Virus record (IMG/VR): IMGVR_UViG_3300044467_000121
Coordinates: 1-33,935 of that record
Reading direction: 5' to 3' (one strand)
Source: a virus
Length of the DNA stretch: 33,935 nucleotides
Shown: positions 3,785 through 32,424 of the stretch, one piece after another
Numbering within the stretch: the stretch's first letter is position 1
Layout of the letters: every line of letters starts with the position of its first letter
Notes under the pieces: generated by a model
The model's database searches: none
What the model was told of the DNA's origin: nothing
The model's input: only the letters and a program-made list of their open reading frames with translations
Made by a program: the position numbers and the translations under genes

Positions 3785-4062
3785 CGCTGGTCCCCGTCGA
3801 GCCCGAGACGATCCGCGCTCGCCCCGCCCGAGCTCGCCGCCGCGCGGTCGCGCCGCCCGTCCATGTCCCGTACTGGCGACGCGCGCTGCGCTGGCTCGTC
3901 GTTCCCCGCCGCGCCTACACCGCGCTCGTCGTGGCGAGCTCGAGCGTGCTCGTGGCCGGGATCGCCCTCATCTACCCGCCCCTCGCCCTGATCGTCGCCG
4001 GCCTCGCCGGCGGCTTCCTCGGGCTCATCGGCCTCGGCATCACCGTCAGGGGTACGAAATGA
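3781..4062 (+). CDS. Small two-helix membrane protein
   Basis: The 93-residue product starts at ATG 3781, overlapping the terminase stop (ATGA), and ends overlapping the portal start. The basic N-terminal half (RARPARARRRAV, then WRRALRW) is followed by two hydrophobic segments, about residues 46-63 and 66-88, separated by a YPP turn. It is therefore probably a membrane protein with its basic end in the cytoplasm. Its place between terminase and portal is unusual. It could be a holin-like protein or an accessory factor, but no family is recognised. Confidence 0.65.
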   Translation: MTLVPVEPETIRARPARARRRAVAPPVHVPYWRRALRWLVVPRRAYTALVVASSSVLVAGIALIYPPLALIVAGLAGGFLGLIGLGITVRGTK

Positions 4063-5855
4063 CGCTCAACGCTCTCGAGGTCGTCGCCCGAGCGGTGGCG
4101 CGGCCGGTCATCCGCGCCGCGATGCCAGCGAGCCCCCTCTCGACCGATGAGTGGATCGAGATGATGTCGCTCGACCACGTCCCGTACCTGTCGACCACGC
4201 TGAAGGTGGACCAGGAGAACATCGACGGGTCGTTCCTTTCGCTCGTGCAGGGCGCGTACCGCTCGAACGGCGTCGTCTTCGCCTGCCTGGCGACCCGGTT
4301 CCTGCTCTTCAGCGAGGCGCGGTTCGCGTTCCAGCAGATGCGCGGCAGCCGCCCGGGCAACCTGTTCGGGACGCCGGCGCTGTCCGTGCTCGAAACGCCG
4401 GAGCCCGGCCGCACGACGGGCGACATGCTCGCCCGGATGATCCTCGACAACGACCTCGCGGGCATCTGGTTCGGCCTCCTCCGGGCCGGCACGATCAAGC
4501 GGCTCCGTCCCGACTGGACCGCGACCGTGTTCGGATCGAAGCGGAAGGACGCGACGCCCCAGGATCCCGACTCGGTCCTCGCCGGCTTCTCCTACATGCC
4601 CGGCGGCCCGACCGGCCAGGCGTCGCTGATGTCGTTCCTGCCGGAGGAGGTCGCGCACTACAGCACCGTGCCCGACGGGATCCGGAACTACGTCGGGATG
4701 CCGTGGCTGACGCCGGTCCTGCGGGAGCTGATGGCGGACAGCGCGGGAACGATCCACAAGCTCGCGTACTACAGGAACGCGGCGACGCCGAACCTGACCG
4801 TCACGATGCCGGCCGGGATGGCGAAGGAGAAGGCGGAGGAGTGGATCGAACTCTTCGAGCAGGAGCACCGCGGCGCGTTCAACGCGTTCAAGACGATCTA
4901 CTTCGGCGGCGGGGCGAGCGCGGACGCCATCGGGGCGAACCTCGGGGAGCTCGACTTCCGCAAGATCCAGGCGGGCGGCGAGAGCCGGATCATCGCGGCG
5001 GCCGGCCTGAACGGGGCGCTGTTCGGTCTCGGCGACATCCAGGGGAGCGCGCTGAACGCCGGCAACATGGCCGCGATCGTCCGGTGGATCGCCGACAGCA
5101 CGATGCGGCCGGCCTGGCGCAACGCCGCGGGCTCCCTCCAGTGGGTCATCGGGACCCCGGCGTCGAGCTCGCGCCTGTGGTACGACGATCGGGACGTCCC
5201 GTTCCTGCGCGACGACGTCCGCGACTCGGCCCGCGCGACGCAGCTGCACGGCTCGACGGTCGGCGGCCTCATCAACAACGGCTTCCTGCCCGACGACGCG
5301 GTCGACGCCGTCATGGCGAACGACCTCCGGCGCCTGATCGGGAAGCACACCGGCCTCGTGTCGGTCCAGCTCCAGCCGCCCGGCCGGCTCGAGCTGCCGG
5401 CGGACGGCGCGGCCGAGGGCACCGCCGCGCAGTCGTTCACCGGCACGACCTCGCGTCTCCGCGAGATGCTTGCCGCGGGCTGGCGCCCCGCGACCGCGCT
5501 CGATGAGGCGATCGTTGCCAGCGCTCTCTCCTCGTCGTCCTCGGACTTGCGCTCGGCGATCGACGGCGTCCGGACGGCGATCGCGGGCCCCGCGCTCGTC
5601 CGCTCGCGGGGCGCGTTCTGGCCGACGTCAGGCCCGTTCGTCGCGCTCGGGGACGTACCGAAGGGCGTCGAGCTCCCGGGCGACCACCAGCTCGTCGCCG
5701 AGTTCCCCTCCATGTTCGAGCCGATCGCCACCGCCCGGATCGGACCCGGCGGCGTCCGCTGCCCGAACCCGGCGTGCGGCAAGCGCGTCGCGCAGAAGCT
5801 CGGGCCCGGCTCCCGACTGACCTGCCGGCACTGCAAGACGGAGGTCGTCGCCTGA
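4059..5855 (+). CDS. Portal protein (HK97-type) with C-terminal zinc ribbon
   Basis: The 598-residue product matches the HK97-type portal family. Characteristic parts include the early clamp region, the MPWLTPVLREL segment, a helical stretch with TIHKLAYYRNAATPNL, and the FRKIQAGGESRIIAAAGLN region before the crown. The portal is a dodecamer at one head vertex through which DNA passes and on which the connector assembles. The last about 35 residues form an additional zinc ribbon: C568-x4-C573, 15 residues, then C589-x2-C592. A Ser/Ala-rich linker lies between the portal fold and the ribbon. A ribbon of this kind is not part of the usual family. The start overlaps the preceding stop. Confidence 0.92.
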   Translation: MTLNALEVVARAVARPVIRAAMPASPLSTDEWIEMMSLDHVPYLSTTLKVDQENIDGSFLSLVQGAYRSNGVVFACLATRFLLFSEARFAFQQMRGSRPGNLFGTPALSVLETPEPGRTTGDMLARMILDNDLAGIWFGLLRAGTIKRLRPDWTATVFGSKRKDATPQDPDSVLAGFSYMPGGPTGQASLMSFLPEEVAHYSTVPDGIRNYVGMPWLTPVLRELMADSAGTIHKLAYYRNAATPNLTVTMPAGMAKEKAEEWIELFEQEHRGAFNAFKTIYFGGGASADAIGANLGELDFRKIQAGGESRIIAAAGLNGALFGLGDIQGSALNAGNMAAIVRWIADSTMRPAWRNAAGSLQWVIGTPASSSRLWYDDRDVPFLRDDVRDSARATQLHGSTVGGLINNGFLPDDAVDAVMANDLRRLIGKHTGLVSVQLQPPGRLELPADGAAEGTAAQSFTGTTSRLREMLAAGWRPATALDEAIVASALSSSSSDLRSAIDGVRTAIAGPALVRSRGAFWPTSGPFVALGDVPKGVELPGDHQLVAEFPSMFEPIATARIGPGGVRCPNPACGKRVAQKLGPGSRLTCRHCKTEVVA

Positions 5856-5927
5856 GACCCGACGCGGGGGGTCATCCGAGGGTAGTCGTCCCGGGGCGCA
5901 GTCCCGGGGGAAAGGGGAAGGTAGACA
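5856..5927 (+). other. Intergenic gap with two small hairpins and a good ribosome binding site
   Basis: The 72-base gap after the portal gene holds two possible hairpins. GACCC 5856-5860 pairs with GGGTC 5869-5873, and CCCGGG 5890-5895 pairs with CCCGGG 5903-5908 over a 7-base loop. No T-run follows. A purine-rich ribosome binding site (GGGGAAGG) lies about 8 bases before the ATG at 5928. This is one of the few real gaps in the late region and marks the start of the inserted block. Confidence 0.4.
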
Positions 5928-6353
5928 ATGGCAGCTGGGACCTGGACGTTCCCGAACGGGAGCCGCACGAAGCTCCTCGACGGGACGTTCGACATCGACA
6001 GCGACACCTGGAAGATGGCGCTGCTCCTGTCGACGTCGAACATCGGCGCGGCGTCGACGACGCACGCGGGCGTGACCAACGAGCACGCGAACGCGAACGG
6101 CTACACGACCGGCGGGATCGCGGTCGTCCTCACCCTGTCGGGGACCACGACGGTCACCGTCGACATCCAGACGGACCCCGTCTGGATGTCGACGGGCGGC
6201 AGCATCGCGGCGCGCTTCGGGGAGATCTACGAGGTCGCGGGCAACGTGCTCGTGTATGCCCTCCTCGACTCCACCCCGGCCGACGTGGCGGCGACCGACG
6301 GCAACACGCTCACCGTCGCGGCCAACGCCAGCGGCGTGTTCACGCTCGCCTGA
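5928..6353 (+). CDS. Probable virion surface or fibre protein (small beta protein)
   Basis: The 141-residue product is rich in Thr, Ala and Gly with alternating hydrophobic residues, the pattern of a beta-sandwich. The start (TWTFPNGSRTKLLDGTFDIDSDTWKM) resembles small structural proteins seen in many tailed phages, which often open with a short segment about a thing set out over a defined length of the virion. I cannot name a domain. The strong ribosome binding site and the position after the portal point to a virion component made in quantity, such as a decoration or fibre protein. Confidence 0.6.
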   Translation: MAAGTWTFPNGSRTKLLDGTFDIDSDTWKMALLLSTSNIGAASTTHAGVTNEHANANGYTTGGIAVVLTLSGTTTVTVDIQTDPVWMSTGGSIAARFGEIYEVAGNVLVYALLDSTPADVAATDGNTLTVAANASGVFTLA

Positions 6354-6368
6354 GCAGGAGGACCAGCC

Positions 6369-6746
6369 ATGCAGACAAACAACCTCGCCTTCGTCATCGC
6401 CCAGGCCGAGGACGAGCGCCAGTCCGGGCCGATCGCGGACGCCGTTCGCCAGTCGATCGAGGTCGGGGTGGTGGTCCCGAGCATCCTTCGGTCACGGCTC
6501 GAGGCGAACGGCCTCCATCTCGTCCAGGACACCGCGGCGCTGGCCGACTACGGCTTCGCGTCGCTGAAGGCGCTCAAGCGAGTCCTGGTCACCGACCACG
6601 ACGGCGCGCTGGTCGCGATGGGCGCCGCCGGCGACCACGACGAGGCCCTACTCCACGCGATGCTCGGATGGTTTCGCGAGAACGCGGTCGGCGACGACCC
6701 TGTCCCGGCGGGATTGGGAACGGCGCCGAACTCGCCGAGCGCGTAG
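6369..6746 (+). CDS. Protein of unknown function
   Basis: The 125-residue product has an acidic, mostly helical profile and no recognised motif. The AGGAGGA ribosome binding site at about 6356-6362 and the immediately following GTG start of the next gene support its expression. The neighbours are likely virion surface proteins, so a structural or assembly role is plausible but unproven. Confidence 0.6.
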   Translation: MQTNNLAFVIAQAEDERQSGPIADAVRQSIEVGVVVPSILRSRLEANGLHLVQDTAALADYGFASLKALKRVLVTDHDGALVAMGAAGDHDEALLHAMLGWFRENAVGDDPVPAGLGTAPNSPSA

Positions 6747-8747
6747 GTGGCGCTCGGCCTCACGAACAGGGGGAGCGGCAACCACAACACGGGGGCCGCC
6801 TCCTTCCCGCTCTCACCCGGCGGCAACTTCGCCGCCGGGTCGTGGGCTGTCCTGTGCGTGGCGGCCGACAACTCGGCATCGGGCGGTTCGACCAACAACT
6901 TCACTACGGTCACCGACAGCATCGGCAACACGTGGACGAAGCGCCGCTCGCCGGTCTTCGACAACGGCGCCGCGAGTGCCGGTGTGCAGGGCGCGATCTG
7001 GACCACCGCCCAGGACGTGGGCCCGCTCCAGACCGGGACCGTCATCACGGTCAGCTTCGGCGCGACGACGACCGCCAAGACGTGGACGCTGACGGAGGTC
7101 ACGAAGGCTGCCGGCGATGTGATCCAGTACGTCACCGGTGGCGACAAGGCGGCCGGAGCCACCGGCACGGGCCTGACCTCCGGGGCGACCGGGACGATCG
7201 CGGTCGGAGACGCCGTCGTCGCGGCGTTCTTCATCGAGGCGGGCACGACCCAGAGCCTGAGCGCGGCGGACACGGACTCGACGAACGGCTCGTGGTCGAC
7301 GAACCAGTACAACGAGATCGGCTCGACGACCTCGGGGTCGGTCATCGTGTCGCAGGGCAAGGTCCAGACGACCACCCCGAGCACGCAGACCTACGACGTC
7401 ACGCTCGGAATCTCATCCGACTATCACGGCTCGTGGATCGTCCTGCACGCGATGACGCCGGTCACGGTGACTCCCGACGTCGCGTCCCTGGTCACGGCGG
7501 CGTTCGCTCCGACGATCCGACTCGACAAGATCGCGACCCCGCCGACGCTGGGCCTGACGGCCACGAGCTTCGCGCCGGCCGTGGCGGCGCCACGGCTCGT
7601 CGCACCGGGCGTTGCTTCGCTAGCGGCGACTCTCTTCGCCCCGGCCGTGGCCACCCCCCGCCTGGCGACGCCGGCGCCCCTCTCCCTGGCGACCTCCGCA
7701 TTCGCCCCGACGATCGAGGCGAGCGCCAACGCGCGGGTCACGCCCGGCGTCGCCGTCCTGGCGCTCACGTCGCTCGCGCCGATCGTGTCCGCCCCTCGCC
7801 TGGTCACGCCAGATACTCTGAGCCTGGTCATGGCCGCCCTCGCCGCGGCGGTCAGCGCGACCGCGAACGTGCGCCCGGTCCCGGGCAGCGCGGCGATCGT
7901 GACGGCGGGCTTCGCCCCGACCGTCCTCAGCCCGCAGCTGGTCACCCCGGGCGTGCTCGGGCTCGTCACGGCCGGCTTCGCGCCGCTCGTCGTCGCGCCC
8001 CGCCTCGTGAGCCCGGGTGTCCACGCGATCGCGACCGCGACGTTCGCCCCCCTGGTCGCGACGCCTCGGCTGGCGGTTCCGGCGCACGTCGCGCTCGAGA
8101 CCACGGCGTTCGCTCCGACGGTCTCGGCGAGCGATCACCAGGTCGCCACGCCGACCGTCGCCCCCCTGGCGCTGGCGGCGTTCGTTCCGACGGTCTCCGC
8201 GCCGCGGACCGTCACCCCGGGGACGAGGGTCCTCGCGGCCGCCGCGTTCGCTCCGACCGTGTCGGTCTCGGACGCGACGGCGATCGTGCCGTCGCCGGCA
8301 GCCCTGAGCCTGACGTCGCTCGAGCCGACCGTGTTCACGCCTCGCCTCGCGACCCCCGATCGCGTGGCCCTCGCGATGACCGCTTTCGCACCGGGCGTGG
8401 TCGCGACCGACCACCAGCGAGCCACCCCGGCGCCGGCCTCGCTCGCGTTCTCCGCGTTCGCCCCCGACGTGTCCGCCGGCGGCGGGATCACGCCAGGACC
8501 GGGCACGCTCAACCTGACCGCCTTCGCACCCGGCGTCGTCGCTACCGACAACCGCGTCGCGCGCCCGGCGTCGGCGGCCCTCGCCCTGACCGCCTTTCCG
8601 CCGATCGTCGAGACGTACGCGGACTGGCCGTTCGGCGCCATCGGGACCGTCACGACGCGCCGGCACGTCGGGACCGTGAGCGGGCCGTCGGCCTTCGGTG
8701 CGTCGGTCCATCAAGCGACCTATCGAGGCGAGGTGAGCCGTGAGTAA
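6747..8747 (+). CDS. Large repeat protein: beta domain plus about 17 Pro/Ala-rich repeats
   Basis: The 666-residue product starts at a GTG directly after the preceding TAG. Residues 1-240 are Gly/Ser/Thr-rich with a beta-sandwich profile, as in phage surface or lectin-like domains. Residues 241-628 are about 17 tandem repeats of 22-23 residues. The shared core reads roughly TPG-x-x-x-L-x-x-x-x-FAP-x-V followed by APRLV or SASDHQ-type ends. A short unique tail of about 38 residues follows. No signal peptide is seen. The repeats would form a long, stiff or beta-spiral stalk, so a head fibre or surface display protein is likely. The sugar-gene cassette close by suggests the Thr/Pro-rich repeats could be glycosylated. 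Confidence 0.75.
   Translation: MALGLTNRGSGNHNTGAASFPLSPGGNFAAGSWAVLCVAADNSASGGSTNNFTTVTDSIGNTWTKRRSPVFDNGAASAGVQGAIWTTAQDVGPLQTGTVITVSFGATTTAKTWTLTEVTKAAGDVIQYVTGGDKAAGATGTGLTSGATGTIAVGDAVVAAFFIEAGTTQSLSAADTDSTNGSWSTNQYNEIGSTTSGSVIVSQGKVQTTTPSTQTYDVTLGISSDYHGSWIVLHAMTPVTVTPDVASLVTAAFAPTIRLDKIATPPTLGLTATSFAPAVAAPRLVAPGVASLAATLFAPAVATPRLATPAPLSLATSAFAPTIEASANARVTPGVAVLALTSLAPIVSAPRLVTPDTLSLVMAALAAAVSATANVRPVPGSAAIVTAGFAPTVLSPQLVTPGVLGLVTAGFAPLVVAPRLVSPGVHAIATATFAPLVATPRLAVPAHVALETTAFAPTVSASDHQVATPTVAPLALAAFVPTVSAPRTVTPGTRVLAAAAFAPTVSVSDATAIVPSPAALSLTSLEPTVFTPRLATPDRVALAMTAFAPGVVATDHQRATPAPASLAFSAFAPDVSAGGGITPGPGTLNLTAFAPGVVATDNRVARPASAALALTAFPPIVETYADWPFGAIGTVTTRRHVGTVSGPSAFGASVHQATYRGEVSRE
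7467..8630 (+). repeat. About 17 tandem 66-69 base coding repeats
   Basis: These encode the 22-23 residue units of the long repeat protein. The amino acid core FAP(T/A/G/L)V recurs at regular spacing, while the DNA copies have diverged at many positions. The repeats are therefore old and maintained by selection at protein level rather than recently duplicated. Shorter (22) and longer (23) units are mixed, the longer ones often ending in a Ser/Asp/His-type turn. Confidence 0.8.
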
Positions 8748-9108
8748 CCTGACCATCATCCGGGGCGACGACGCCACCTTCGACGTCGACATCACCGCCG
8801 ACGGCGCGGAGCTCCCCATCGAGGACGCGCTCGCCGTGACGTTCACCGCGAAGCGGAGCGCCGTCGACGACGACGTCGACGCGCTGATCCGGAAGGACCT
8901 CGATTACGGGATCACGATCGACGGCAACGCCGCCCACGTGGCGATCGAGGCCGCGGACACGCGTGACCTCGCCGCCCCGATGGCGCTGCTCTGGGACCTG
9001 GAGGTGGTCGACGCCGACGGGCTGACCCACACGGTGGCGGTCGGCTACCTGCGCATCGAGGCCGACGTGACCCGCGAGTCCGGGTTCGTCGCCGGGTCCG
9101 GTTCGTGA
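8740..9108 (+). CDS. Probable beta-sandwich virion protein, BppU-N-like
   Basis: The 122-residue product opens with LTIIRGDDATFDVDIT and continues with alternating beta strands, TAKRS, LIRKDLDYGI and a LLWDLEVVDADG strand. This pattern resembles the N-terminal domain of phage baseplate upper proteins and related small structural proteins that anchor fibres. The resemblance is by eye only. The GTG start overlaps the repeat-protein stop by 8 bases, so the two are likely translated together and may form one surface structure. Confidence 0.6.
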   Translation: MSNLTIIRGDDATFDVDITADGAELPIEDALAVTFTAKRSAVDDDVDALIRKDLDYGITIDGNAAHVAIEAADTRDLAAPMALLWDLEVVDADGLTHTVAVGYLRIEADVTRESGFVAGSGS

Positions 9109-9425
9109 GCGAGCTCAGCGGCGACGACCTGCCGCGCGACGACGAATGGATCGACGTCGGCGGCGGCGTCCGGATCACGGCTCCGGAGCCGATGACGCAC
9201 GAGGGCAAGGAGTACCTGGGCTCGTGGTGGTCCCACACCCGGCCCGGCGACGGCCGGCAGGACGGATGGGCGCGGATGCTGTTCGGCGGCCCCTTCCACG
9301 TCCTCGTCTCGACTGACCCGCTGACGATCGAGCCGTCGATCCTCTGCGGGAGCATCGGGAGGCCCGACGTCGGCTGCGGGCGCCACGGGTACATCCGCGA
9401 CGGTCGGTGGATCGACGCCGGATGA
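9105..9425 (+). CDS. DUF6527-like small protein
   Basis: The 106-residue product ends in the segment LTIEPSI, then CG-x-HGYI and RDGRWIDAG. This pattern resembles small phage and bacterial DUF6527-type proteins: a beta segment with TIxPSI, a Cys/His-containing CGxHxxI, then W near the end. The role of such proteins is unknown. Additional Cys residues (about 81 and 91) could join a metal site. Both ends overlap neighbouring genes. The family call is a visual match only. Confidence 0.55.
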   Translation: MSELSGDDLPRDDEWIDVGGGVRITAPEPMTHEGKEYLGSWWSHTRPGDGRQDGWARMLFGGPFHVLVSTDPLTIEPSILCGSIGRPDVGCGRHGYIRDGRWIDAG

Positions 9426-9961
9426 CGCCGATCCGCTGCTTCATGGTCGAGCTCGTCAACCCGCACTCGAAGACGGAGATGGTCCGGTCGTACTGCTCGA
9501 TCGCGGACTGCGAGCGCGCCCATGAGTCCGACGAGCGCGGGTCGCGGCGCCACGTCGAGGCGGAAGCGTGGACGTCCGAGGTCTGGGACGTCCTGCGGGT
9601 CGACAGCGGCGATGTGATCGCGACCGACGCCTGGTCGCTCTCGATGTGTCGCATCCCCGGCGCGATGTTCTGGTCGAGCATCGGCGATCGCCAGGCCGAC
9701 GAGCACCTCGCCGGCTCCAGGCTCTTCGCGTCCGGGCCTCAGCTCCAGGTGATCCTGCCGGACAACAACCCGTGGAACATCGACGCTCGGGCGAACAACT
9801 GCGGCAAGCCCGCCGACTTCGAGCATCGCTGTTGGATCCGCCACGGCGACCCTCCGGCGATCACCGTCGACAAGGGCGGCCTGACCTGTACGGCGGGCGC
9901 CGGGTCGATCGACAGCGGGACGTGGCACGGGTTCCTGCGCGCCGGAGAGCTCGTCGCGTGA
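9422..9961 (+). CDS. Protein of unknown function next to the glycan cassette
   Basis: The 179-residue product starts at ATG 9422 overlapping the preceding stop (ATGA). It has many Trp, Cys and His residues. The C-terminal part (NNPWNIDARANNCGKPADFEHRCW, then a TCTAGAGSIDSG strand) looks like a compact beta domain. No catalytic motif is recognised. It is the last gene before the glycosyltransferases and is coupled to the first of them. It could be a small virion protein or an accessory to glycan transfer, but nothing in the sequence decides this. Confidence 0.6.
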   Translation: MTPIRCFMVELVNPHSKTEMVRSYCSIADCERAHESDERGSRRHVEAEAWTSEVWDVLRVDSGDVIATDAWSLSMCRIPGAMFWSSIGDRQADEHLAGSRLFASGPQLQVILPDNNPWNIDARANNCGKPADFEHRCWIRHGDPPAITVDKGGLTCTAGAGSIDSGTWHGFLRAGELVA

Positions 9962-10656
9962 GCATCGTCGTCGTGATGCCGTCACGCGGCAGGCCGGAAC
10001 GTGCTGCCGAGGCCGTCCAGGCCATCCTGGACACCGCGGTCCTCTCCGACACGCGCGTCTGGCTCGCGGTCGATGCCGACGATCCCGCCCTGCTCCGCTA
10101 CGACGCGTTGGCGGTCGGCCGGGTCACGGAGGTGATCCTCGCGCCCGACGAGACCGGCGACCTGACGCGGGCGACGAACGCGGTGTCCATGCGGCTCGCG
10201 GCGGACGACCCGACGGCGGTGATCGGCAACCTCGGGGACGACCACGTGTGCCGCACCGTAGGCTGGGACCGGTCGGTCGCCGACGCGCTCGCGCGGCCCG
10301 GGATCGCCTACGGCGACGACCTGATCCACGGCGCGAACCTGCCGACCGCCCCGTTCATCTCGGCCCAGATCGTGCGCGCCCTCGGCTGGTACGCGATGCC
10401 GGCCTGTCGCCACCTGTTCATCGACACCGTCTGGCGGGACATCGGCATCGAGACCGGCACGCTCCGCTACCTCCCGTCCGTGGTCATCGAGCACCTGCAT
10501 CCGCTCGTCGACAAGGCGGAGTGGGACGAGGGCTACCGCCTGGCGAACTCGGAAGAGACGACCAGCCACGACCGGGCGGCCTACGAACGGTGGCGTGAGA
10601 CGGCGATGGCCGCCGACGTCGACCGCGTCCAGCGAGCGCTCCGGGGGGCGGCATGA
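9958..10656 (+). CDS. GT-A type glycosyltransferase-like protein
   Basis: The 232-residue product opens with IVVVMPSRGRPERAAEAV, the nucleotide-sugar binding start of GT-A (family 2-like) glycosyltransferases. An acidic metal-binding triad, GDDH with D94-D95-H96, follows at the usual distance. The later FIDTVWRDIG and VVIEHLHP segments fit acceptor-side elements of phage enzymes of this type. It should transfer a sugar from a nucleotide donor to a virion or host acceptor in the cytoplasm. It is coupled by GTGA to the gene before and ATGA to the gene after. Confidence 0.75.
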   Translation: MSIVVVMPSRGRPERAAEAVQAILDTAVLSDTRVWLAVDADDPALLRYDALAVGRVTEVILAPDETGDLTRATNAVSMRLAADDPTAVIGNLGDDHVCRTVGWDRSVADALARPGIAYGDDLIHGANLPTAPFISAQIVRALGWYAMPACRHLFIDTVWRDIGIETGTLRYLPSVVIEHLHPLVDKAEWDEGYRLANSEETTSHDRAAYERWRETAMAADVDRVQRALRGAA

Positions 10657-11282
10657 TCGACGCCGTCGAGCTCCGCGGCGTTCGGCTCCGCCTGCACCCC
10701 GAGGGCGAGGGCGTGTCCGACGGGATCCGGCGCTCGGGCGACTTCTACGAGGCGGCCATCCTCGACTACGTCCGTAACCGCCACCTGGGCCAGCGGGTCA
10801 TCGTCGACGCCGGCGCGAACGTCGGGAACCACACGGCCTACTTCGCCCGCTTCCTGGCCCACGATCGGATCCACGCCTTCGAGCCGATCGCGGCGAACTA
10901 CGCGCTGCTCTGCGAGAACGTCGCGGCCTTCGCGACCGTCACGACGCACCAGGTCGCGCTGTCGGACGGCCCGCGGGTCCTCCGGATGGAGCCGAACCCG
11001 GCCAACATGGGCGCCTGTCTCGTGACCGACGAGGGCTCGCTCGAGGTCGACGCCGTCGCCCTCGACAGCCTCGGCCTCTCGAACGTCACGCTGGTCAAGG
11101 TGGACGTCGAGAACCACGAGGCGACCCTCCTCCTGGGCGCGGCGGAGACGATCGCCCGCGACCACCCCCTGATCCTGATCGAGGACTGGACCTACGGCGG
11201 CATCGCCGAGATGTTGCCCGGCTACGAGATGGAGATGGCATGGCCCGACGCGTTCACCTACCTGTACCGGTGGGCGTCGTGA
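10653..11282 (+). CDS. FkbM-family SAM-dependent methyltransferase
   Basis: The 209-residue product has the SAM-binding loop VDAGANVGNH at 51-60, an acidic strand end at E77 (HAFEPIAANY), and the LDSLGL, LVKVDVENHEATLLLGA block that marks FkbM-type methyltransferases. Enzymes of this family O-methylate sugars and other small hydroxylated groups. In this setting the likely substrate is a glycan or activated sugar from the adjacent cassette. It lies in an unbroken overlapping run of genes. Confidence 0.85.
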   Translation: MIDAVELRGVRLRLHPEGEGVSDGIRRSGDFYEAAILDYVRNRHLGQRVIVDAGANVGNHTAYFARFLAHDRIHAFEPIAANYALLCENVAAFATVTTHQVALSDGPRVLRMEPNPANMGACLVTDEGSLEVDAVALDSLGLSNVTLVKVDVENHEATLLLGAAETIARDHPLILIEDWTYGGIAEMLPGYEMEMAWPDAFTYLYRWAS

Positions 11283-12244
11283 GAGGCCTGACCGGGAACG
11301 TCCTCGTGACCGGCGGATCCGGCTCGCTCGGCGGAGCCATCCTCGCCCGTGCGTTCGCCGAGTGCTGGGATGCCTCGTTCGTCGTCTACTCCCGGGACGA
11401 GGTGAAGCAGGCGGCGATGCGCGACCGCTTCCCCGCGGTCCGCTTCGTCCTCGGCGACGTGCGCGACAGCGACTCGCTCGAGACGGCCATGCGCGGGGTC
11501 GACGTGGTGGTCCACGCCGCGGCCTACAAGCGAGTGCCCGAGGCCGAGCGCGAGACGATGGCCTGCGTCCAGGCCAACGTGGTCGGCTCGATGAACGTCG
11601 TGCGCGAGGCGCTCCGTGCCGCGGTCCCGCGGGTCATCGGGATCTCGACCGACAAGGCCTGCGCGCCGATCAACGCGTATGGCCAGAGCAAGGCGCTCAT
11701 GGAGCGGCTCTACCAGGCGGCCGTCCGCCCGACGGGACCCGCCTTCACGCTCGTGCGATACGGGAACGTGATCGCGAGCACCGGATCGGTCGTCCCCGCG
11801 CTCCTGGCCCAGGCCGCCGCCGGCGGTCCGATCACGCTCACCGATCCGGCGATGACCCGTTTCTGGATCACCCTCGACGACGCGGTCGACCTCATCCTCG
11901 TCGGCCTCGAGCTCGAGTCGGGCTCGATCCTCATCCCGAAGTCGCGCTCGTCGACGATGGCGGTCATGGCCGAGGCGGTCGCCCCGGGCGTCGCGCAGGT
12001 CAACGTCGGCTTCCGGGCGGGCGAGAAGCGACACGAGCAGCTGCTGAACGCCCACGAGGCTCCGTACGCCCGCGACGTCGGGCGACACTACGTCCTCGGC
12101 CCCCTGACCGGCGACCGCCACGGCGAGCTTGCCGAGGGCTTCGAGTACCGCTCCGACACGGCGGCGAAGATCGACGTCGGGGAACTGCGCGCCATCATCG
12201 CGCACATGGCCAGCGGCGAGACCGTCCGGGCGATCACGCCGTGA
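11279..12244 (+). CDS. pseB: PseB/FlaA1-like UDP-GlcNAc 4,6-dehydratase
   Basis: The 321-residue short-chain dehydrogenase/reductase has the NAD(P) loop TGGSGSLGG at 11-19, HAAAYKRVP near 79-87, STDKACAPINAYGQSK at 123-138 (catalytic D125-K126 and Y134), RYGNVIASTGSVVP at 160-173 and MTRFWITLDDAVDLIL at 192-207. These are the hallmarks of FlaA1/PseB, which turns UDP-GlcNAc into the 4-keto-6-deoxy sugar, first step of pseudaminic acid and related deoxy-amino sugars. The GTG at 11279, overlapping the preceding stop, is preferred over a GTG at 11240 that would overlap by more than 40 bases. None of the later pathway genes is seen here. Confidence 0.85.
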   Translation: MRGLTGNVLVTGGSGSLGGAILARAFAECWDASFVVYSRDEVKQAAMRDRFPAVRFVLGDVRDSDSLETAMRGVDVVVHAAAYKRVPEAERETMACVQANVVGSMNVVREALRAAVPRVIGISTDKACAPINAYGQSKALMERLYQAAVRPTGPAFTLVRYGNVIASTGSVVPALLAQAAAGGPITLTDPAMTRFWITLDDAVDLILVGLELESGSILIPKSRSSTMAVMAEAVAPGVAQVNVGFRAGEKRHEQLLNAHEAPYARDVGRHYVLGPLTGDRHGELAEGFEYRSDTAAKIDVGELRAIIAHMASGETVRAITP

Positions 12245-14208
12245 TCCCCCGCATCCTGCATCACGTCTGGATCGGCCCGCGTCCGGTTCCCGAGGAATGG
12301 GCGGCGGCATGGCGGACCATGCACCCCGGCTGGGAGCACCGCATCTGGCGCGAGGATGATATCGACACCCTCGACGTGCCGCGCCGGGATGTTTATGACG
12401 CCTACATGCGCGACGGCATCTGGCACGGTGCCGCGGACCTCGCCCGGATCGCCATCCTCGACGCTGTGGGCGGTGTCTACGTGGACATCGACAGCCGCCC
12501 GCTGCGGACGCTCGAGGGCGCCCCGTTCATGGCCGAGGGGTTTTTCGCCGCCTATGAGCCTCCGAACCCGCACCTTCCTGGCCGTGTCGCCAACGGCACC
12601 ATCGGCTCCGAGCCCGGGCACCCGGTCATCAAGACGTACCGGCGACTCGTCGAGGAGCTCCAGACGTTCGAGGAGCCATGGGCGACCTGCGGGGGCACGA
12701 CGCTGACCGAGGCGATGGCGCTGCACGACCAACGTCCGCTCCCGGCCCGGACGTTCTACCCGAAGAGCTGGAGCGGGAAGCCCGTCCACGGCAGCGAGAC
12801 CTCGTATGCCGAGCACTTCTGGGCGACGACCAACTACGGATACCCCCTCCGCACCGTGGTCCTCGTCCCCCGACGAGCGGGCGACCCCACTCGCGACGCC
12901 AACTGGGAGTGGTGCCGGCGCATCTGGACGCAGCAGGGCTGGCCCATCTTCGAGGGGCACCACGACGAGCCCGGTCTGTTCAATGCCTCGAAGGCGCGCA
13001 ACGCGGCGGCGGAGGCCGCGGGTGACTGGGATGTCGCCATCTTCGCGGACGCCGATACGGTGCCCTGGGACTGGCGCCAGGTGAAGGCTGGTGTGGACCT
13101 CGCGCTCCGGACCGGCAAGTTCATCCGGCCGTTCACGACCTACCACATGCTCGACGAGGCGGGGTCCGCATCGTTCATGGCGACCGGGGTGATCCCCCGG
13201 CACGGCATCCGACGCCTGCGCGAATCGGCCTACGGTGGCATCCACATCGTGCCGCGACGCCTGTGGGACGCCTCCGGCGGTTACGACGAGCGGTTCCTCG
13301 GCTGGGGCTCGGAGGACGCAGCATTCCAGTTCGCCTGCACCGTGCTGGGCGGCTACAAGGCGCTCCGCGGCGACGTGTACCACCTGTGGCACCCCATGCA
13401 GCCGCGTGATCCGTCGACGCCGCAGTTCGGGGCCAACATCGCGTTGGGTGCCCGATACCGCGCCATCCACCGCCCGGACCGGATGCGCGCGCTGATCGCG
13501 GAGCACACGGGCAAGGCTCCGGTTCGGAGCAGGCCGTCGGTCGGCGCCGTCGTGATCACCAACGGGCGACGCGAGTGCATCGCCCGGACCATCCCCTCGC
13601 TCGAGGAGAAGGTCGGACCGTTCACCGAGCGCGTGATCTGCGACGACTCGGGAGACCCGGAGTACGCGGCCTGGCTCGGCGAGTCGTTCCCCGACTGGAG
13701 CATCAGGGCGCACGACCATCTCGGTCACGGCCCCGCCGTCCGCTTCGCGATGGGCGCGGCCGCGGACATGGACGCTGACTGGGTCTTCTGGTGCGAGGAC
13801 GACCTCGAGTTCCAGCGGCGCGTCGACCTGGCCGCGATCGTCGACGTGATGGAGGAGGAGGGCGACGACCTGAAGCAGATGGTCATCAAGCGCCAGGCCT
13901 GGTTCCCCAAGGAGATCGAGGCCGGCGGGATGATCGAGCGCTTCGACCCGTCCCTCTTCGTGGAGCGCTCGAACGACGGCTCCAGATGGATCGAACACCG
14001 CCAGTTCTTCAGCCTCAACCCGCATCTCGTCAGCCGGGGGCTCCTCGCGGTGCTCCGGCAGAAGTGGCCTGACGTGCCGAACTCCGAGCACCACTTCAGC
14101 CGGCAGCTGTTCAGGGATCGCCGCGTCAGGTGCGGCATCTGGGGCGGGAAGGCGGATCCGCCGCTGGTCCTGCACATCGGCGAGCAGCGGGTCGGGACGG
14201 GATATTGA
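12241..14208 (+). CDS. Three-domain glycosyltransferase
   Basis: The 655-residue product is a fusion of three glycosyltransferase-like modules. Residues 1-200 resemble the Gly_transf_sug group: IPRILHHVWIGP start, AADLARIAIL, and the DXD motif D82-I-D84 in a GGVYVDIDSRP context. Residues about 204-430 resemble GT2/GT7-type enzymes, with D270-A-D272 and a GGYDERFLGWGSEDAAF block near 346-362 typical of galactosyltransferase C-terminal regions. Residues 434-655 start VGAVVITNGRRE and carry an acidic EDD at 519-521. It starts at GTG 12241 over the pseB stop. The fusion could assemble a short oligosaccharide in order. Confidence 0.85.
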   Translation: MIPRILHHVWIGPRPVPEEWAAAWRTMHPGWEHRIWREDDIDTLDVPRRDVYDAYMRDGIWHGAADLARIAILDAVGGVYVDIDSRPLRTLEGAPFMAEGFFAAYEPPNPHLPGRVANGTIGSEPGHPVIKTYRRLVEELQTFEEPWATCGGTTLTEAMALHDQRPLPARTFYPKSWSGKPVHGSETSYAEHFWATTNYGYPLRTVVLVPRRAGDPTRDANWEWCRRIWTQQGWPIFEGHHDEPGLFNASKARNAAAEAAGDWDVAIFADADTVPWDWRQVKAGVDLALRTGKFIRPFTTYHMLDEAGSASFMATGVIPRHGIRRLRESAYGGIHIVPRRLWDASGGYDERFLGWGSEDAAFQFACTVLGGYKALRGDVYHLWHPMQPRDPSTPQFGANIALGARYRAIHRPDRMRALIAEHTGKAPVRSRPSVGAVVITNGRRECIARTIPSLEEKVGPFTERVICDDSGDPEYAAWLGESFPDWSIRAHDHLGHGPAVRFAMGAAADMDADWVFWCEDDLEFQRRVDLAAIVDVMEEEGDDLKQMVIKRQAWFPKEIEAGGMIERFDPSLFVERSNDGSRWIEHRQFFSLNPHLVSRGLLAVLRQKWPDVPNSEHHFSRQLFRDRRVRCGIWGGKADPPLVLHIGEQRVGTGY

Positions 14209-15194
14209 CGCTGACGATCGACGTCTTCGCCTCGAAGTCGTGGTACGTCCCCCACCTCGCGCCCGTCTGGGCGGCCCTCGGCCCCGACGCCGGCACCTTC
14301 CACGTCGCGCCGCCCGCCTGGACCGACGGGGCCGCGCGGATCCGCGGCGCCACGACGGCGCCGCTCGCCGGCGGCGACGTCCCGATCCTGACGATCGGGT
14401 ACCCCGACATGGCGACCGCGAGGAAGGCGGGCCGGACGCGGCTCGCGCTCGGGCAGCACGGCATCGGGCAGTCCTACCTGGGCGCCCTCGCGCCTGACCA
14501 GGAGCCGCACCCGGGCTACCCGGGCGGCGACCGGCAGGACGAGGTCGGGCTGTTCCTGGTCCCGAACGAGACCGCGGCGCGCGTGACTCGCGAGGCGTAC
14601 CCCGCTGCCACCGTCGCGGTCGTCGGCTGCCCGAAGCTCGACGCGCTGCCCGCGCGCCGGCCGGACGGCGGCTCCCCGGTCGTCGCGATCAGTACGCACT
14701 GGGACGCGCGGGTGTCGCCCGAGAGTCAGTCCGCCTGGCGCCACTACCGCGCGACCCTCCTCCGGCTCGGCGCCACGCACCGGGTCATCGGTCACGGTCA
14801 CCCGCGCGAGCTGAGGCGGATCGCGCCGCTCTACCGGGCAGCCGGCATCGAGGTCGTGCCGTCGTTCGACGCGGTGATCGAGCGGGCGTCGGTCTACGTG
14901 TGTGACAACAGCTCGTCGATGTACGAGGCGGCCGCCGCGGGTCTCGCGGTCGTGGTCCTCAACGCGCCGACGTACCGCCGCGAGGTCGAGCACGGGCTCC
15001 GGTTCTGGGCGGCCGCCGGCGTGGGCATCAACGTGGACAGGGCGGCGGAGCTCGAGGCGGCGATCGCCCGGGCGCTGGAGCTCCGTCCTGACGACGTGGC
15101 GGCGCGCGAGCGGACGCTCGACGTCGTGTACCAGCCCCGCCACGGCGCCGCCGAGCTGGCGGCCGCGGCGCTGCGCGCCTGGGCGGATACATAG
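14205..15194 (+). CDS. TagF-like (CDP-glycerol glycerophosphotransferase-like) GT-B transferase
   Basis: The 329-residue product starts at TTG 14205, overlapping the preceding stop, and has two Rossmann-like halves. The C-terminal half contains VYVCDNSSSMYEAAAAGLAVVVLNAP, a signature seen in CDP-glycerol:polyglycerophosphate transferases and related GT-B enzymes; GLRFWAAAGVGI follows. Such enzymes transfer glycerol phosphate or a sugar from a nucleotide carrier. Phage members are often listed without a function. As the last gene of the cassette it may add the terminal or linking unit. A TAG at 15192-15194 ends the operon-like run. Confidence 0.7.
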   Translation: MTLTIDVFASKSWYVPHLAPVWAALGPDAGTFHVAPPAWTDGAARIRGATTAPLAGGDVPILTIGYPDMATARKAGRTRLALGQHGIGQSYLGALAPDQEPHPGYPGGDRQDEVGLFLVPNETAARVTREAYPAATVAVVGCPKLDALPARRPDGGSPVVAISTHWDARVSPESQSAWRHYRATLLRLGATHRVIGHGHPRELRRIAPLYRAAGIEVVPSFDAVIERASVYVCDNSSSMYEAAAAGLAVVVLNAPTYRREVEHGLRFWAAAGVGINVDRAAELEAAIARALELRPDDVAARERTLDVVYQPRHGAAELAAAALRAWADT

Positions 15195-15347
15195 GAAAGA
15201 CACAGGTATGACCCTTGTCAGTTTGACAAGTGCGTCTATCGTGACCCGCGAATAGAACTCCGTCGGCCGTGTCCCCGTGACCAGCCCGACATCGGCAGTG
15301 ACCTCCTACGCGCGGATCGTGTCCAGGGCGCGGATGGAGGTCCATCT
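15195..15347 (+). promoter_or_regulatory. Gap before the protease gene: palindrome, possible promoter, SD-sequestering helix
   Basis: A perfect inverted repeat, CTTGTCA 15214-15220 and TGACAAG 15224-15230, has a 3-base loop. A possible promoter overlaps it: TTGTCA 15215-15220, 16 bases, TATCGT 15237-15242. This would let the palindrome act as an operator, but that is inference. Further on, GACCTCC 15300-15306 is perfectly complementary to the ribosome binding site GGAGGTC 15336-15342 of the GTG start at 15348. The site could be hidden in a stem. This is one of the longest gaps in the late region and fits a new transcription unit for the head genes. Confidence 0.45.
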
Positions 15348-16523
15348 GTGCCCGAGATCATCGAAGCCGAGGCCGACGCCCTCGTCGACGCCGAGCTCGC
15401 CGCGGCCGGCGAAGGGCCGTTCGACCCGATCCTCCCCGACTCGCCGCCCCGATACCCGCACGTCTTCAAGACGCTGATGGAGCGCCCCTGGGCGATCCAG
15501 GCCGAGATGCTCTCGATGATGGTGGACATCGTCCGCTTCCGGGTGCAGGGCGGCCGGATGTCGAAGGACGAGATCAGCGCGGTCCTCGAGGCCGCGGCCG
15601 CGGACAACCCGGAACGGCGCAGCGACGGCTCGTTCGACGTCGGCTCCGTCCGGGTGATCCCGGTGTACGGCGTCATCAGCCAGCGCATGGGCCTGATGTC
15701 GATGGTCTCGGGCGGGACCAGCCTCGACGTCCTGCGCGGCCAGGTGCGCGGCGCCCTCGCGGACCAGGGCATCAGCGCGGTCGTGCTCCAGTTCGACTCG
15801 CCGGGCGGCAGCGTCGACGGCCTCACGGAGTTCGCGGCCGAGCTGCGCGGCCTGCGCGACGGCCCGAAGCCGATAGTCGGGATCGCCGACTCCCTCGCCG
15901 CGTCGGCCGCCTATTGGCTCCTGTGCCAGTGCACCGAGGCGATCGTGACGCCGTCCGGATCCGTCGGCTCTGTCGGCGTGTTCGCGGCCCACGAGGACCA
16001 GAGCGCGGCCGAGGAGATGGCGGGCATCAAGACGACGCTCGTCGCGGCCGGCCCGTTCAAGACCGAGGGGAACCCGCACGAGCCGCTGAGCGACGACGCG
16101 AGGACGACGATCCAGGGCTACGTCGACGCGTACTACGGGATGTTCACGAAGGACGTGGCGGCCGGCCGCGGGACCACGGCCGCGCTCGTCGTCGCGAACT
16201 ACGGCGGCGGCCGCGAGGTCCTCGCCCAGGACGCGCTGAAGGCCGGGATGGTCGATCGCGTCGACACCCTCGAGAACACGGTCCGGAGGCTCCTGCCTCG
16301 CCAGGGCCGTTCGTCCAGGTCGGCCGAGGCCGCACCCGTCGAGGTCGGGGACGTCGCTCCCGACATGCCCGCGATCGCCGCCACGGCGGTCGAGACCCTG
16401 CCGATCGCCGCCTCGGCGGTCGCCACTCGCACCGAGAGCCGGGCGGCTCCGCGCCGACGTGCGCTTTCCGCCGAACAGCGGGACGCGTTCTGGGGCGGCT
16501 TCAGCACCACGAAAGGGAACTGA
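15348..16523 (+). CDS. S49-family capsid maturation protease
   Basis: The 391-residue product is an SppA/S49-type protease. VIPVYGVISQRM lies near 103-113, FDSPGGSVDG at 149-158, and the nucleophile S186 in a DSLAASAAYW context. GSVGSVGVFAAH lies near 204-215, and the general-base lysine K238 is in a GPFKTEGNP motif. In phages such enzymes cut the scaffold part of the capsid protein inside the prohead. The about 90-residue N-terminus is acidic and helical; the Ala/Arg-rich C-terminal 75 residues could be a scaffold-like tail. The GTG start is set by GGAGGT at 15336-15341. It is followed directly by the major capsid gene, as expected. Confidence 0.9.
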   Translation: MPEIIEAEADALVDAELAAAGEGPFDPILPDSPPRYPHVFKTLMERPWAIQAEMLSMMVDIVRFRVQGGRMSKDEISAVLEAAAADNPERRSDGSFDVGSVRVIPVYGVISQRMGLMSMVSGGTSLDVLRGQVRGALADQGISAVVLQFDSPGGSVDGLTEFAAELRGLRDGPKPIVGIADSLAASAAYWLLCQCTEAIVTPSGSVGSVGVFAAHEDQSAAEEMAGIKTTLVAAGPFKTEGNPHEPLSDDARTTIQGYVDAYYGMFTKDVAAGRGTTAALVVANYGGGREVLAQDALKAGMVDRVDTLENTVRRLLPRQGRSSRSAEAAPVEVGDVAPDMPAIAATAVETLPIAASAVATRTESRAAPRRRALSAEQRDAFWGGFSTTKGN

Positions 16524-16526
16524 CGG

Positions 16527-18005
16527 ATGGAATTCAAGGACCTCGACGCCCTGCGCTCGATCGAAGAGCTGGAGGCGTACGGCGAAGAGCTGAGGGAGCG
16601 CGCCCTCGCGATGGACGCGGAGCAGGCCGGCCTCCCCTTCAGCGATGAGCAGCGCGACGAGTTCGCGAAGATCGCGTCCACCCGCAAGGAGATCACCGCG
16701 CGCGTCACGGAGCTGACGGCGCGACGGAACTACATCGACGAGCTGGCGACCGACGACGCGCACGTCGAGCGCGGCGGCGAGGACCTCGTCCGGCCGCTGC
16801 TCGCCGCCGCGGCGACAGCGCGCCGGCTCGTGCCGGACAACGTGTTCGCCATCGACGAGTACCGCTCGCGGACGCGCACGGACGGCGAGTACGTCCAGGC
16901 GCTCAACGACGGCGCCCGCAAGATCGCCGACTCGGCGCAGTACGCGCCGACGGTCGACCCGAAGGCGGCCCAGGCCGCCGTCCACAAGATCCTCGAGGAG
17001 GCCGAGACCGAGGATCGCAAGGTCATCGCCCGCCGGATCATCGCGACCGGATCGCCCGCCTACCGGGCCGCGTTCAACGCGTTCCTCCGCAAGCTCAACC
17101 CGAACGCGCTCAGCCGCCTCGAGCTCGAGGCGCTGACCCTGGGATCGGACCCGGACGGCGGCTACATGATCCCCTTCGCCCTCGACCCGACGATCATCCT
17201 GATCTCGGACGGGGCGATCAACCCGCTGCGCACGATCGCGCGGGTCGAGCGGATCACCGGCAAGAAGTGGCAAGGGGTCAAGTCGACCGGGATCATCGTG
17301 ACCCGGCACCCCGAGAACTTCGAGTCGACCGACGACAGCCCCGACCTGACGCAGCCCGAGCTCGAGACCTCGCGCGTCCAGGCGTGGATCCCGTTCAGCC
17401 GCGAGCTCGAGGCATCGGTCAACGTGCCCGCCGCCGTCGCGCCGCTCCTGGCCGACGCGAAGGACATGGAAGAGGCCGATGAGTTCATCAACGGCGACGG
17501 CGTCACCGCGGGCGGCGTCACGAACCCGTCCGGCCTGATCGCGACCCTCGCGGCCGGGTCCTTCGTCCCGACGGTCGGCGCCGCCTCGTTCGGCCCGGAG
17601 GACGTCTACGCCATCAAGAACCAGACCCCGCCGCGCTGGCGCGCCCGCGGTCGGTACCTCGGCGAGGGCTCGATCTACGACCTGGTCCGCCAGTTCGACA
17701 CCAGCGGCGGGTCGAACATGTGGGTCCAGCTCGCCGACGCGAACCCGGGCCGGCTGATCGGCTACCCGGGCGAGGAGATCAGCACGATGGACGGCGACCT
17801 GTCGACCGGCTCGCACCCGCTGATCTTCGGGGACTTCAAGCAGTTCCTGATCGTCGACCGGCTGGGCATGGCGGTCGACGTCATCCCCCACGTCTTCGGG
17901 GCGAACGGCCGGCCCACCGGGCAGCGCGGCGTCTTCGCCCTCTGGGCGAACGGCTGCGGGATCCTCGCCGACGAGGCGTTCCGCTGCCTCGAGGTCCCGA
18001 GCTGA
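16527..18005 (+). CDS. Major capsid protein (HK97 fold)
   Basis: The 492-residue product matches the HK97 major capsid family: the GSDPDGGYMIP segment (about 207-217) that opens the mature fold, the LRTIARVERITG strand, ISRELE-type helix (IPFSRELEASV), ADEFINGDG, and the C-terminal GDFKQFLIVDRLGMAVDVIPH strands. The N-terminal about 75 residues are charged and coiled-coil, a delta domain that acts as scaffold and is presumably removed by the S49 protease. The region before the mature fold is about 205 residues, roughly 80-100 longer than in HK97 gp5. A purine-rich site lies before ATG 16527. Confidence 0.93.
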   Translation: MEFKDLDALRSIEELEAYGEELRERALAMDAEQAGLPFSDEQRDEFAKIASTRKEITARVTELTARRNYIDELATDDAHVERGGEDLVRPLLAAAATARRLVPDNVFAIDEYRSRTRTDGEYVQALNDGARKIADSAQYAPTVDPKAAQAAVHKILEEAETEDRKVIARRIIATGSPAYRAAFNAFLRKLNPNALSRLELEALTLGSDPDGGYMIPFALDPTIILISDGAINPLRTIARVERITGKKWQGVKSTGIIVTRHPENFESTDDSPDLTQPELETSRVQAWIPFSRELEASVNVPAAVAPLLADAKDMEEADEFINGDGVTAGGVTNPSGLIATLAAGSFVPTVGAASFGPEDVYAIKNQTPPRWRARGRYLGEGSIYDLVRQFDTSGGSNMWVQLADANPGRLIGYPGEEISTMDGDLSTGSHPLIFGDFKQFLIVDRLGMAVDVIPHVFGANGRPTGQRGVFALWANGCGILADEAFRCLEVPS

Positions 18006-20542: not shown

Positions 20543-21131
20543 ACCGTTCGAGATCATGGCCGTCCCGTTCGACGTGTACCTCGCGCCGGCCGGGACGGCG
20601 AAGCCCGACATCGGCGCGGACCTCACGGGGATCCCCGCGTGGGTCCTCCTCGGCCTGCGCGGCGCCGGCGAGTACGACGAGGCGGGGATCACCGTCACCC
20701 ACGAGCAGACGATCGAGATGTACCGCGGGCTCCGCGGGACCGGCCCGGTCAAGTCGTTCCGGACGTCGGAGGGACTCACCCTCGGCTTCACGCTCAACGA
20801 CCTGACGGTCGAGAGCTACGCGAAGGTCGTGAACGACGCGGCCGTCGACAGCAGCTCGGGCAACAGCAATCTCGTCCAGCTCCATCAGGGGCCGCAGGTC
20901 GCGACGTTCGCGCTCCTGGCCATCTCGCCCGACGGCCCCTACGGCGACGGCGCGCCCTGCCAGTACTGGCTCCCGAAGGTGAGCCAGTCGGGCTCCCCCG
21001 CGGTCGTCCACCGGAAGGGCACCCCGGCCGGCCTCGCGCTCACCTTCACCGCGATGGAGGACCTCGACGCGGCGTCGGACGACGAGCGGTTCGGCGTGTT
21101 CGAGGCGGCCGACGCGCCGCTCGGCAGCTGA
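20535..21131 (+). CDS. Major tail protein (tail tube)
   Basis: The 198-residue product is beta-rich and begins FEIMAVPFDVYLAPAGTAKP, typical of siphophage tail-tube proteins. The IEMYRGLRGTGPVKSFRTSEGLTLGFTLNDLT segment and the C-terminal AGLALTFTAMEDL strand fit the same group. Hexamers of this protein stack around the tape measure to form the tube. A strong ribosome binding site (AGAAGGAG about 20522-20529) fits high expression. Its position between the tail terminator and the tail chaperones is standard. Confidence 0.82.
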   Translation: MPEPFEIMAVPFDVYLAPAGTAKPDIGADLTGIPAWVLLGLRGAGEYDEAGITVTHEQTIEMYRGLRGTGPVKSFRTSEGLTLGFTLNDLTVESYAKVVNDAAVDSSSGNSNLVQLHQGPQVATFALLAISPDGPYGDGAPCQYWLPKVSQSGSPAVVHRKGTPAGLALTFTAMEDLDAASDDERFGVFEAADAPLGS

Positions 21132-21143
21132 TCCGGGTCCGCG

Positions 21144-21374
21144 ATGAGCGGAGCGGCACAGGCGCCTAGCGCCACAGCCCTCCTCGAAGAGGCAGCGCGG
21201 CTCGACGCCGAGGCGCGCCACCACAAGCGAGCGGAGGCGTTCCACCGTCGCCAGGCGCAGGTCGCGCGACGGTCGCTCGCGGAGATCGAGGCGACCTGCC
21301 GGCGCCTCGGGATCCGGTTCGTCATCCACCACGGCCACAGTCCCAAGGCACAGCCCCAGGAGGCACAGCCATGA
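21144..21374 (+). CDS. Small helical protein between major tail and chaperone genes
   Basis: The 76-residue product is mostly helical, rich in Ala, Arg and Glu (LLEEAARLDAEARHHKRAEAFHRRQAQ), with a short strand IRFVIHHGH near the end. No domain is recognised. It overlaps the chaperone start by 4 bases (ATGA), so it is likely expressed with it. Its ribosome binding site is weak. Confidence 0.5.
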   Translation: MSGAAQAPSATALLEEAARLDAEARHHKRAEAFHRRQAQVARRSLAEIEATCRRLGIRFVIHHGHSPKAQPQEAQP

Positions 21375-32035: not shown

Positions 32036-32040
32036 CACCG

Positions 32041-32424
32041 CTATGACCCGCCGAGCGTGAAGCCGACGATCCACGCGCGGGCCGCCAGCTCGTCGCGGCT
32101 GTACGTCAGCTCGCCGCGGCGGCCGACGCTGACCGCGTAGAACGGCGCGTCCGGTACCTCGACGCTGAAGGTGAAGCGGCAGATGCCGAAGATGGTGGAC
32201 GCGGAATCGTCCAGCCTCGACGTCGCGAGCGTCTTGCCGTCGCCGTCCTTGACCAGGACCCCGGTCCCGACCGCGATATCCGCGTAGCCGCCGGAGCCCT
32301 CACAGTCGGGTCCGGTGATGACGCTGCTGTCGTGGAGTTCGAAGCTCCCGGTGATTGTGTGCGTGGTCGCACAGCCGACCATGAGCACCGCGATAAGCGC
32401 CAGTGCAGCGGCCCGCGCCATCAT
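32041..32424 (-). CDS. Small lipoprotein
   Basis: The 127-residue product begins MMARAAALALIAVLMVGC, a short signal peptide ending in a lipobox (LMVGC) with lipidated C18. The mature part (TTHTITGSFELHD, CEGSGGYADIAVGTGVLVKDGDGK) is a small beta-rich domain like those of secreted bacterial lipoproteins of unknown function. Prophage-encoded lipoproteins can block superinfection, so that is one possibility. It lies between the repressor and the membrane protein gene, all on the minus strand. It should be anchored on the outer face of the cytoplasmic membrane. Confidence 0.75.
   Translation of the reverse strand: MMARAAALALIAVLMVGCATTHTITGSFELHDSSVITGPDCEGSGGYADIAVGTGVLVKDGDGKTLATSRLDDSASTIFGICRFTFSVEVPDAPFYAVSVGRRGELTYSRDELAARAWIVGFTLGGS

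Follow-up and report, generated by a model that had tools for sequence, protein, structure and literature searches.

Virion glycosylation has been shown in a few mycobacteriophages, where it is tied to antibody binding. As related in PMC12363180, the virions of mycobacteriophages Che8, Corndog and Myrna are glycosylated, and in Che8 the phage gene gp110 is essential for the modification (Freeman et al. 2023, via PMC12363180). Che8 carries three glycosyltransferases, gp108-110, at the end of its genome. A different arrangement is seen in a soil phage, the IMG/VR virus record IMGVR_UViG_3300044467_000121, whose positions 1 to 33,935 form the stretch analyzed here in full (the window). Between its portal and capsid genes lie five sugar genes (9958-15194), encoding a glycosyltransferase (denoted GTa), an FkbM-family methyltransferase (FkbM), a PseB-like UDP-N-acetylhexosamine (UDP-HexNAc) 4,6-dehydratase, a fusion of three glycosyltransferase domains (GTtri), and a transferase of GT-B fold (GTB). 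With a probability of roughly two in three, this set is a mobile glycan-assembly cassette of the late head operon that would build, in the cytoplasm, a glycan for one or more virion proteins.

The core set of FkbM, PseB-like enzyme, GTtri, and GTB recurs in three other IMG/VR phages, one of which lacks FkbM, and is placed between portal and capsid in all three. Loci L004 and L005 were found by a search with the PseB-like protein, and L058 was added by a search with GTtri. BLASTP identity to the window is 45-48% for GTB, 55-62% for GTtri, 79% (L004), 74% (L005), and 63% (L058) for the PseB-like enzyme, and 72% (L004) and 67% (L005) for FkbM. Among the window, L004, and the L005/L058 pair, BLASTP of the large terminase subunit (TerL), portal, and capsid gives no significant similarity; similarity does exist between L005 and L058, and among the S49 proteases of the window and these two loci. 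Given 45-79% identity of the cassette proteins and no significant BLASTP similarity of terminase, portal, and capsid, the cassette is a horizontally moving module that holds its place beside the capsid gene. The first-pass annotation had proposed that the head operon harbors a phage cassette dedicated to glycan synthesis and had suggested a search of phage genomes for conserved gene order; the comparison across unrelated phages supports that proposal well. The set is GTB-(FkbM)-PseB-GTtri in all three loci, and the cassette comes after the protease in L005 and L058, where the protease is recognized, and before it in the window. Inside the cassette of L005, an HNH-endonuclease-like gene on the minus strand (L005:7494-8030) lies between the PseB and GTtri genes.

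A survey with GTB alone extends the picture. A ten-member GTB profile retrieved 104 viral stretches; the 80 that were fetched make, with the earlier loci, 84 loci, or 73 at 90% identity. GTB lies in the packaging-head-tail segment at every locus with recognizable markers (58/58), the other 15 of the 73 having none; the loci are not independent events, hence no p-value is given. The 58 divide into 15 with GTB between portal and capsid, 29 with GTB after the capsid gene, and 14 with the segment partly in view, and at the 29 GTB precedes the tape-measure gene wherever that gene is in view. Four capsid clusters without mutual BLASTP similarity carry GTB, and the portal-capsid placement is present in all four. 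Within 5 kb of GTB there is another glycosyltransferase at 57 of 73 loci and a methyltransferase at 27 of 73. Two relatives of the window portal have another sugar-type set, of transferases, an epimerase-like protein, and a methyltransferase, soon after the capsid gene and without GTB (L045:6167-8989 and L049:6139-9075).

The portal-capsid interval might instead be a tolerated insertion hotspot that collects moron genes with unrelated functions. Other accessory genes are indeed found there in relatives (p644-like in L032 and L040, collagen-like in L068 and L069), and both gene order and side of the protease vary. Nevertheless, this explanation is improbable, given that unrelated head modules share this functional set and that GTB is always in the packaging-head-tail segment where this can be judged, whereas a general hotspot would contain many other gene classes.

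The family is also nearly confined to phages. In a collection of 84,980 species genomes, GTB occurs in only two records, metagenome-assembled genomes of a Solirubrobacteraceae and a Coriobacteriia member, and both copies sit within phage structural genes. In a sample of 396 genomes of the phylum, strong GTB matches come from those two records only, and a scan of the genome collection with GTtri returned no relatives. Judged by this distribution, GTB is a phage-specific enzyme family. The cassette PseB-like enzymes form one clade (100/99 support), and their best cellular homologues in the 396 sampled genomes are at most 48% identical; the set thus circulates among phages.

In the window, genes run in the order HNH, small terminase subunit, TerL, small membrane protein, portal, the inserted block, S49 protease, capsid, head-tail, and tail, all on the plus strand. 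The first-pass annotation counted eleven genes separating portal from protease, and its coordinates all hold: exactly 11 open reading frames (ORFs; 5928-15194) lie between the portal end at 5855 and the protease start at 15348, the sugar genes being the last five. Its statement that all but the ends overlap tightly applies from 8740 to 15194, where each gene overlaps the next by 4-19 bases, and not to the first three genes, which are spaced 0-15 bases; gaps of 72 and 153 bases flank the block. Because of these continuous overlaps, translational coupling probably joins the sugar genes and the accessory genes at 8740-9961 into a single unit. The size of the portal-capsid gap is unusual, at 11.1 kb versus a median of 1.2 kb in 27 portal relatives whose portal and capsid genes are both visible. 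In portal relatives without the cassette, the gap contains little except the protease.

Among the enzymes, GTa is 36-40% identical to Streptomyces phage glycosyltransferases. FkbM scores above the curated cut-offs of PF05050 (42.3 vs 22.7 bits) and TIGR01444 (80.2 vs 37.7 bits). The closest solved relative of the PseB-like protein is FlaA1/PseB (2gn4, 7e-60), with STDKA..PINAYG..K aligned; the TDK...Y...K catalytic motif of the SDR fold is present (STDKACAPINAYGQSK, aligned to FlaA1) and is kept in the cassette relatives. The methyltransferase and the dehydratase named at first pass are thus both confirmed, although the dehydratase fails the PseB equivalog cut-off TIGR03589 (265.8 vs 407.75 bits). 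The glycosyltransferases, given as two or more, were present but undercounted, as there are three genes with approximately five transferase domains. GTtri consists of GT32-like (residues 1-205), Glyco_transf_7C-like (206-428), and GT2-like (429-655) domains, whose acidic motifs D82/D84, D270/D272, and E519-D520-D521 are invariant in four sequences. Its structure model has low confidence in domain 1 and half of domain 3, with domain 2 usable, and the better-predicted part resembles the tandem GT-A domains of chondroitin polymerase. The GTB model matches UDP-GlcNAc 2-epimerases, SdgB, MurG, and TagF in Foldseek, a fold common to many GT-B enzymes. The Glyphos_transf profile (PF04464) weakly matches 7 of 10 GTB family members (best 7.5e-8) and does not match the window GTB itself, and in the PHROG search no family covers GTB. 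The enzyme may transfer either a sugar or a phosphate-linked group.

Phage glycosyltransferases are also known to glucosylate DNA, and GTa additionally matches phrog_2675, labelled DNA methyltransferase, so the transferases could conceivably modify hypermodified bases rather than protein. This is very unlikely: no base hydroxymethylase or hypermodification gene is recognized in the window, nor would base glucosylation be expected to involve a sugar-nucleotide dehydratase, an FkbM methyltransferase, or a multi-domain transferase.

The chemistry that we infer for the virion cassette begins with the PseB-like enzyme, which would turn UDP-HexNAc into a 4-keto-6-deoxy sugar nucleotide. Assembly of a short cytoplasmic glycan would then fall to GTa, the three GTtri domains, and GTB, with O-methylation by FkbM. 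The glycan would most likely be attached to a virion protein of the same operon (the capsid or tail-tube protein, or else an accessory surface protein), such that the particle would exit the cell already decorated. The benefit may lie in receptor binding, shielding, or stability.

Several points weigh against this mechanism. The product of a PseB-type enzyme is a 4-keto-6-deoxy-HexNAc, and its conversion to a stable sugar depends on a reductase or an aminotransferase. The records of the window, L004, L005, and L058, which are possible fragments, yielded no match to a DegT-type aminotransferase (PF01041, the PseC partner). The window itself is a genome fragment, with genes elsewhere in the genome outside the view, and the host or genes outside these fragments could supply the aminotransferase step. 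The deoxy-amino sugar proposed at first pass is consequently doubtful, given the missing aminotransferase and a PseB score of 266 vs 408 bits. No direct homology of the cassette to Che8 gp110 or Myrna gp234 is detectable. The capsid proteins adjoining the cassette are unrelated to each other, so that only loose recognition would allow one conserved virion protein to serve as acceptor; the unrelated capsid neighbors would be accounted for equally well by a conserved host glycan. The 666-residue repeat protein of the block (6747-8747) was ruled out as a general acceptor, since no relatives of it were found and the cassette-bearing L004, L005, and L058 lack it. Among ten GTB-bearing records checked, one (L093, record G008) has DegT-type aminotransferase matches, on the opposite strand at 21042-21548.

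In an alternative reading, the cassette alters a glycan of the host cell surface, such as a capsule or a wall teichoic-like polymer. It would do so in lysogens or in the late phase of infection, and the effect would be to prevent superinfection or to modify the receptor. The difficulty of unrelated capsids then disappears, PseB-like enzymes mostly serve surface polysaccharides, and GTB relatives weakly match the CDP-glycerol glycerophosphotransferases that make teichoic acid, with TagF among the fold matches. Even so, this is unlikely. Scans for families and membrane segments found no membrane protein, flippase, polymerase, or initiating phosphoglycosyltransferase in the cassette, whose enzymes have no obvious membrane segments; GTB is almost never found outside phages; and the fixed position among late head genes is odd for lysogenic conversion. 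Of 10 GTB-bearing records, each possibly a fragment, only 2 have a tyrosine integrase. Virion glycosylation, as first suggested, remains the best reading, inferred from position, phage specificity, soluble enzymes, and the likeness of GTtri domain 2 to Che8 gp109.

Under the virion reading, capsid or tail-tube proteins are the simplest acceptors. The genes at 5928-9961 had been taken for likely surface proteins, which holds in part. The protein directly after the portal (5928-6353) shares 60-65% identity with proteins from many mycobacteriophages, among them one annotated as a minor tail protein. For the rest the description is less apt: the repeat protein has repeats but no database relative, and the gene at 8740-9108 belongs to phrog_1084. 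The repeat protein has a threonine/serine-rich N-terminal part followed by approximately 16 repeats of 22-24 residues (..TP....L...AFAPTV..), and no relative was found in the phage collection or the fetched loci. Tandem Repeats Finder (TRF) detects no DNA-level repeat in the gene beyond a 15-base duplicate, so the protein repeats have diverged. Its proposed role as the glycan acceptor is weakened by its lack of relatives and by the core cassettes of L004, L005, and L058, which do without it.

Surface-type genes accompany some related islands. Collagen-like proteins occur at the same place, directly after the portal in L069 and L060 and before the capsid gene in L068; phrog_644 and phrog_1084 neighbors are found in other related islands, and phrog_1084 homologues lie near glycan cassettes in L062, L067, L087, L099, and L129. 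These neighbors are suggestive of surface acceptors. Linkage of surface-type genes to the cassette in the portal-capsid interval, judged against cassette-free loci, is not significant (5/15 vs 2/27, p=0.08). The collagen-like protein of L060 (L060:3187-6672, 1161 residues, GTQ/GTT-type triplets) stands directly after the portal and before the glycosyltransferase island. Threonine-rich collagen repeats are O-glycosylated in BclA, and O-glycosylation of those in L060 is possible.

Table 1. Features of the window and of the block between portal and protease.
Feature	Position	Strand	Evidence
Window, IMG/VR virus record	33.9 kb		~71% G+C
Portal, left edge of block	4059-5855	+	PF04860 E=1e-12; 33 viral relatives
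phrog_644 protein, probable virion/tail-type	5928-6353	+	phrog_644 9e-23
125-aa protein	6369-6746	+	no Pfam or PHROG match
666-aa repeat protein, possible surface protein	6747-8747	+	repeat spacing, composition
phrog_1084 protein	8740-9108	+	phrog_1084 1e-10
DUF6527-like small protein	9105-9425	+	PF20137 E=7e-4, below cut-off
184-aa protein	9407-9961	+	no Pfam or PHROG match
GTa, glycosyltransferase	9958-10656	+	phrog_14945 glycosyltransferase 3e-40
FkbM-family methyltransferase	10653-11282	+	PF05050 1e-10; TIGR01444 2e-22
PseB/FlaA1-like UDP-HexNAc 4,6-dehydratase	11270-12244 (start 11240 also open)	+	PF02719 (Polysacc_synt_2) 1e-72
GTtri, fusion of three GT domains	12241-14208	+	Pfam, PHROGs
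GTB, GT-B-fold transferase, CDP-glycerol-transferase-like	14205-15194	+	AlphaFold pLDDT 84, Foldseek
S49 prohead protease, right edge of block	15348-16523	+	PF01343 2e-28
HK97-type major capsid protein (Phage_capsid)	16527-18005	+	PF05065 2e-30

Among the accessory genes, the DUF6527-like protein contains cysteines and is coupled to the glycan genes. Elsewhere in the window, a collagen-like protein is encoded in the tail-gene region (28566-29237), and past the tail genes long minus-strand ORFs without PHROG match (30926-32424) are either real genes or spurious products of high G+C content.

A broader proposal is put forward tentatively, at somewhat less than even odds: GTB may mark a widespread, previously uncatalogued class of glycan islands that move among phages with unrelated capsids, always beside head genes, and whose fullest form, that of the window, synthesizes the 6-deoxy-HexNAc donor itself and covers the virion with a glycan that is methylated and may contain phosphoglycerol. 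If these islands do glycosylate virions, glycan-coated particles would be no curiosity but common in soil phages, GTB would serve as a sequence marker to find them, and the cassette would be a compact soluble enzyme set for building glycans in the bacterial cytoplasm. It also renders testable why the enzymes remain beside the capsid gene yet move between unrelated phages. What appears to be new is the form of the probable phage-encoded virion glycosylation, a transferable island in the head operon that brings along a sugar-nucleotide enzyme and a transferase family specific to phages. A glycan cassette next to the portal gene was not found described in the open-licence literature on collagen-like/glycosyltransferase phage loci, capsid glycosylation, or actinophage glycan clusters.

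Known systems resemble the cassette to different degrees. Clusters of the gtrABC type, which act in lysogenic seroconversion, comprise a membrane flippase and a membrane glucosyltransferase, and neither family is matched in the window cassette. GX15bay and prophiGD91-2 have glycosyltransferase-methyltransferase clusters beside the terminase, and the GX15bay galactosyltransferase is 37% identical to GTtri domain 3; those clusters are upstream of the terminase and made of separate genes, whereas the window has a fusion inside the portal-capsid interval. TagF-type CDP-glycerol:poly(glycerophosphate) glycerophosphotransferases and their GT-B relatives share the fold of GTB and the weak profile match noted above, but GTB is short, soluble, phage-specific, and located in the head operon. 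The inverting UDP-GlcNAc 4,6-dehydratases PseB/FlaA1 and CapE belong to the same family as the window enzyme and share its TDK/Y/K motif; the latter differs in falling below the PseB equivalog cut-off, in belonging to a phage clade, and in having no PseC partner in the records searched.

In chlorovirus PBCV-1, a virus-encoded multi-domain transferase, a methyltransferase, and sugar-nucleotide enzymes glycosylate the capsid protein in the cytoplasm; this virus is eukaryotic, and the likeness is only an analogy of working mode. Che8, Corndog, and Myrna are closer, being actinobacterial phages that encode their own glycosyltransferases. The window cassette shares with such virion glycosylation systems the placing of phage-encoded transferases in or beside the structural gene cluster. 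The Che8 genes lie at the genome end and those of Myrna before the minor tail genes, while the window cassette lies between portal and capsid, and neither phage has a match to the PseB-like enzyme or GTB. Though gp110 and Myrna gp234 are not detectably related to it, the cassette probably works like the mycobacteriophage virion glycosylation systems, because Che8 gp109, the neighbor of gp110, is a homologue of the middle GTtri domain (phmmer 5e-14, hhalign 99%).

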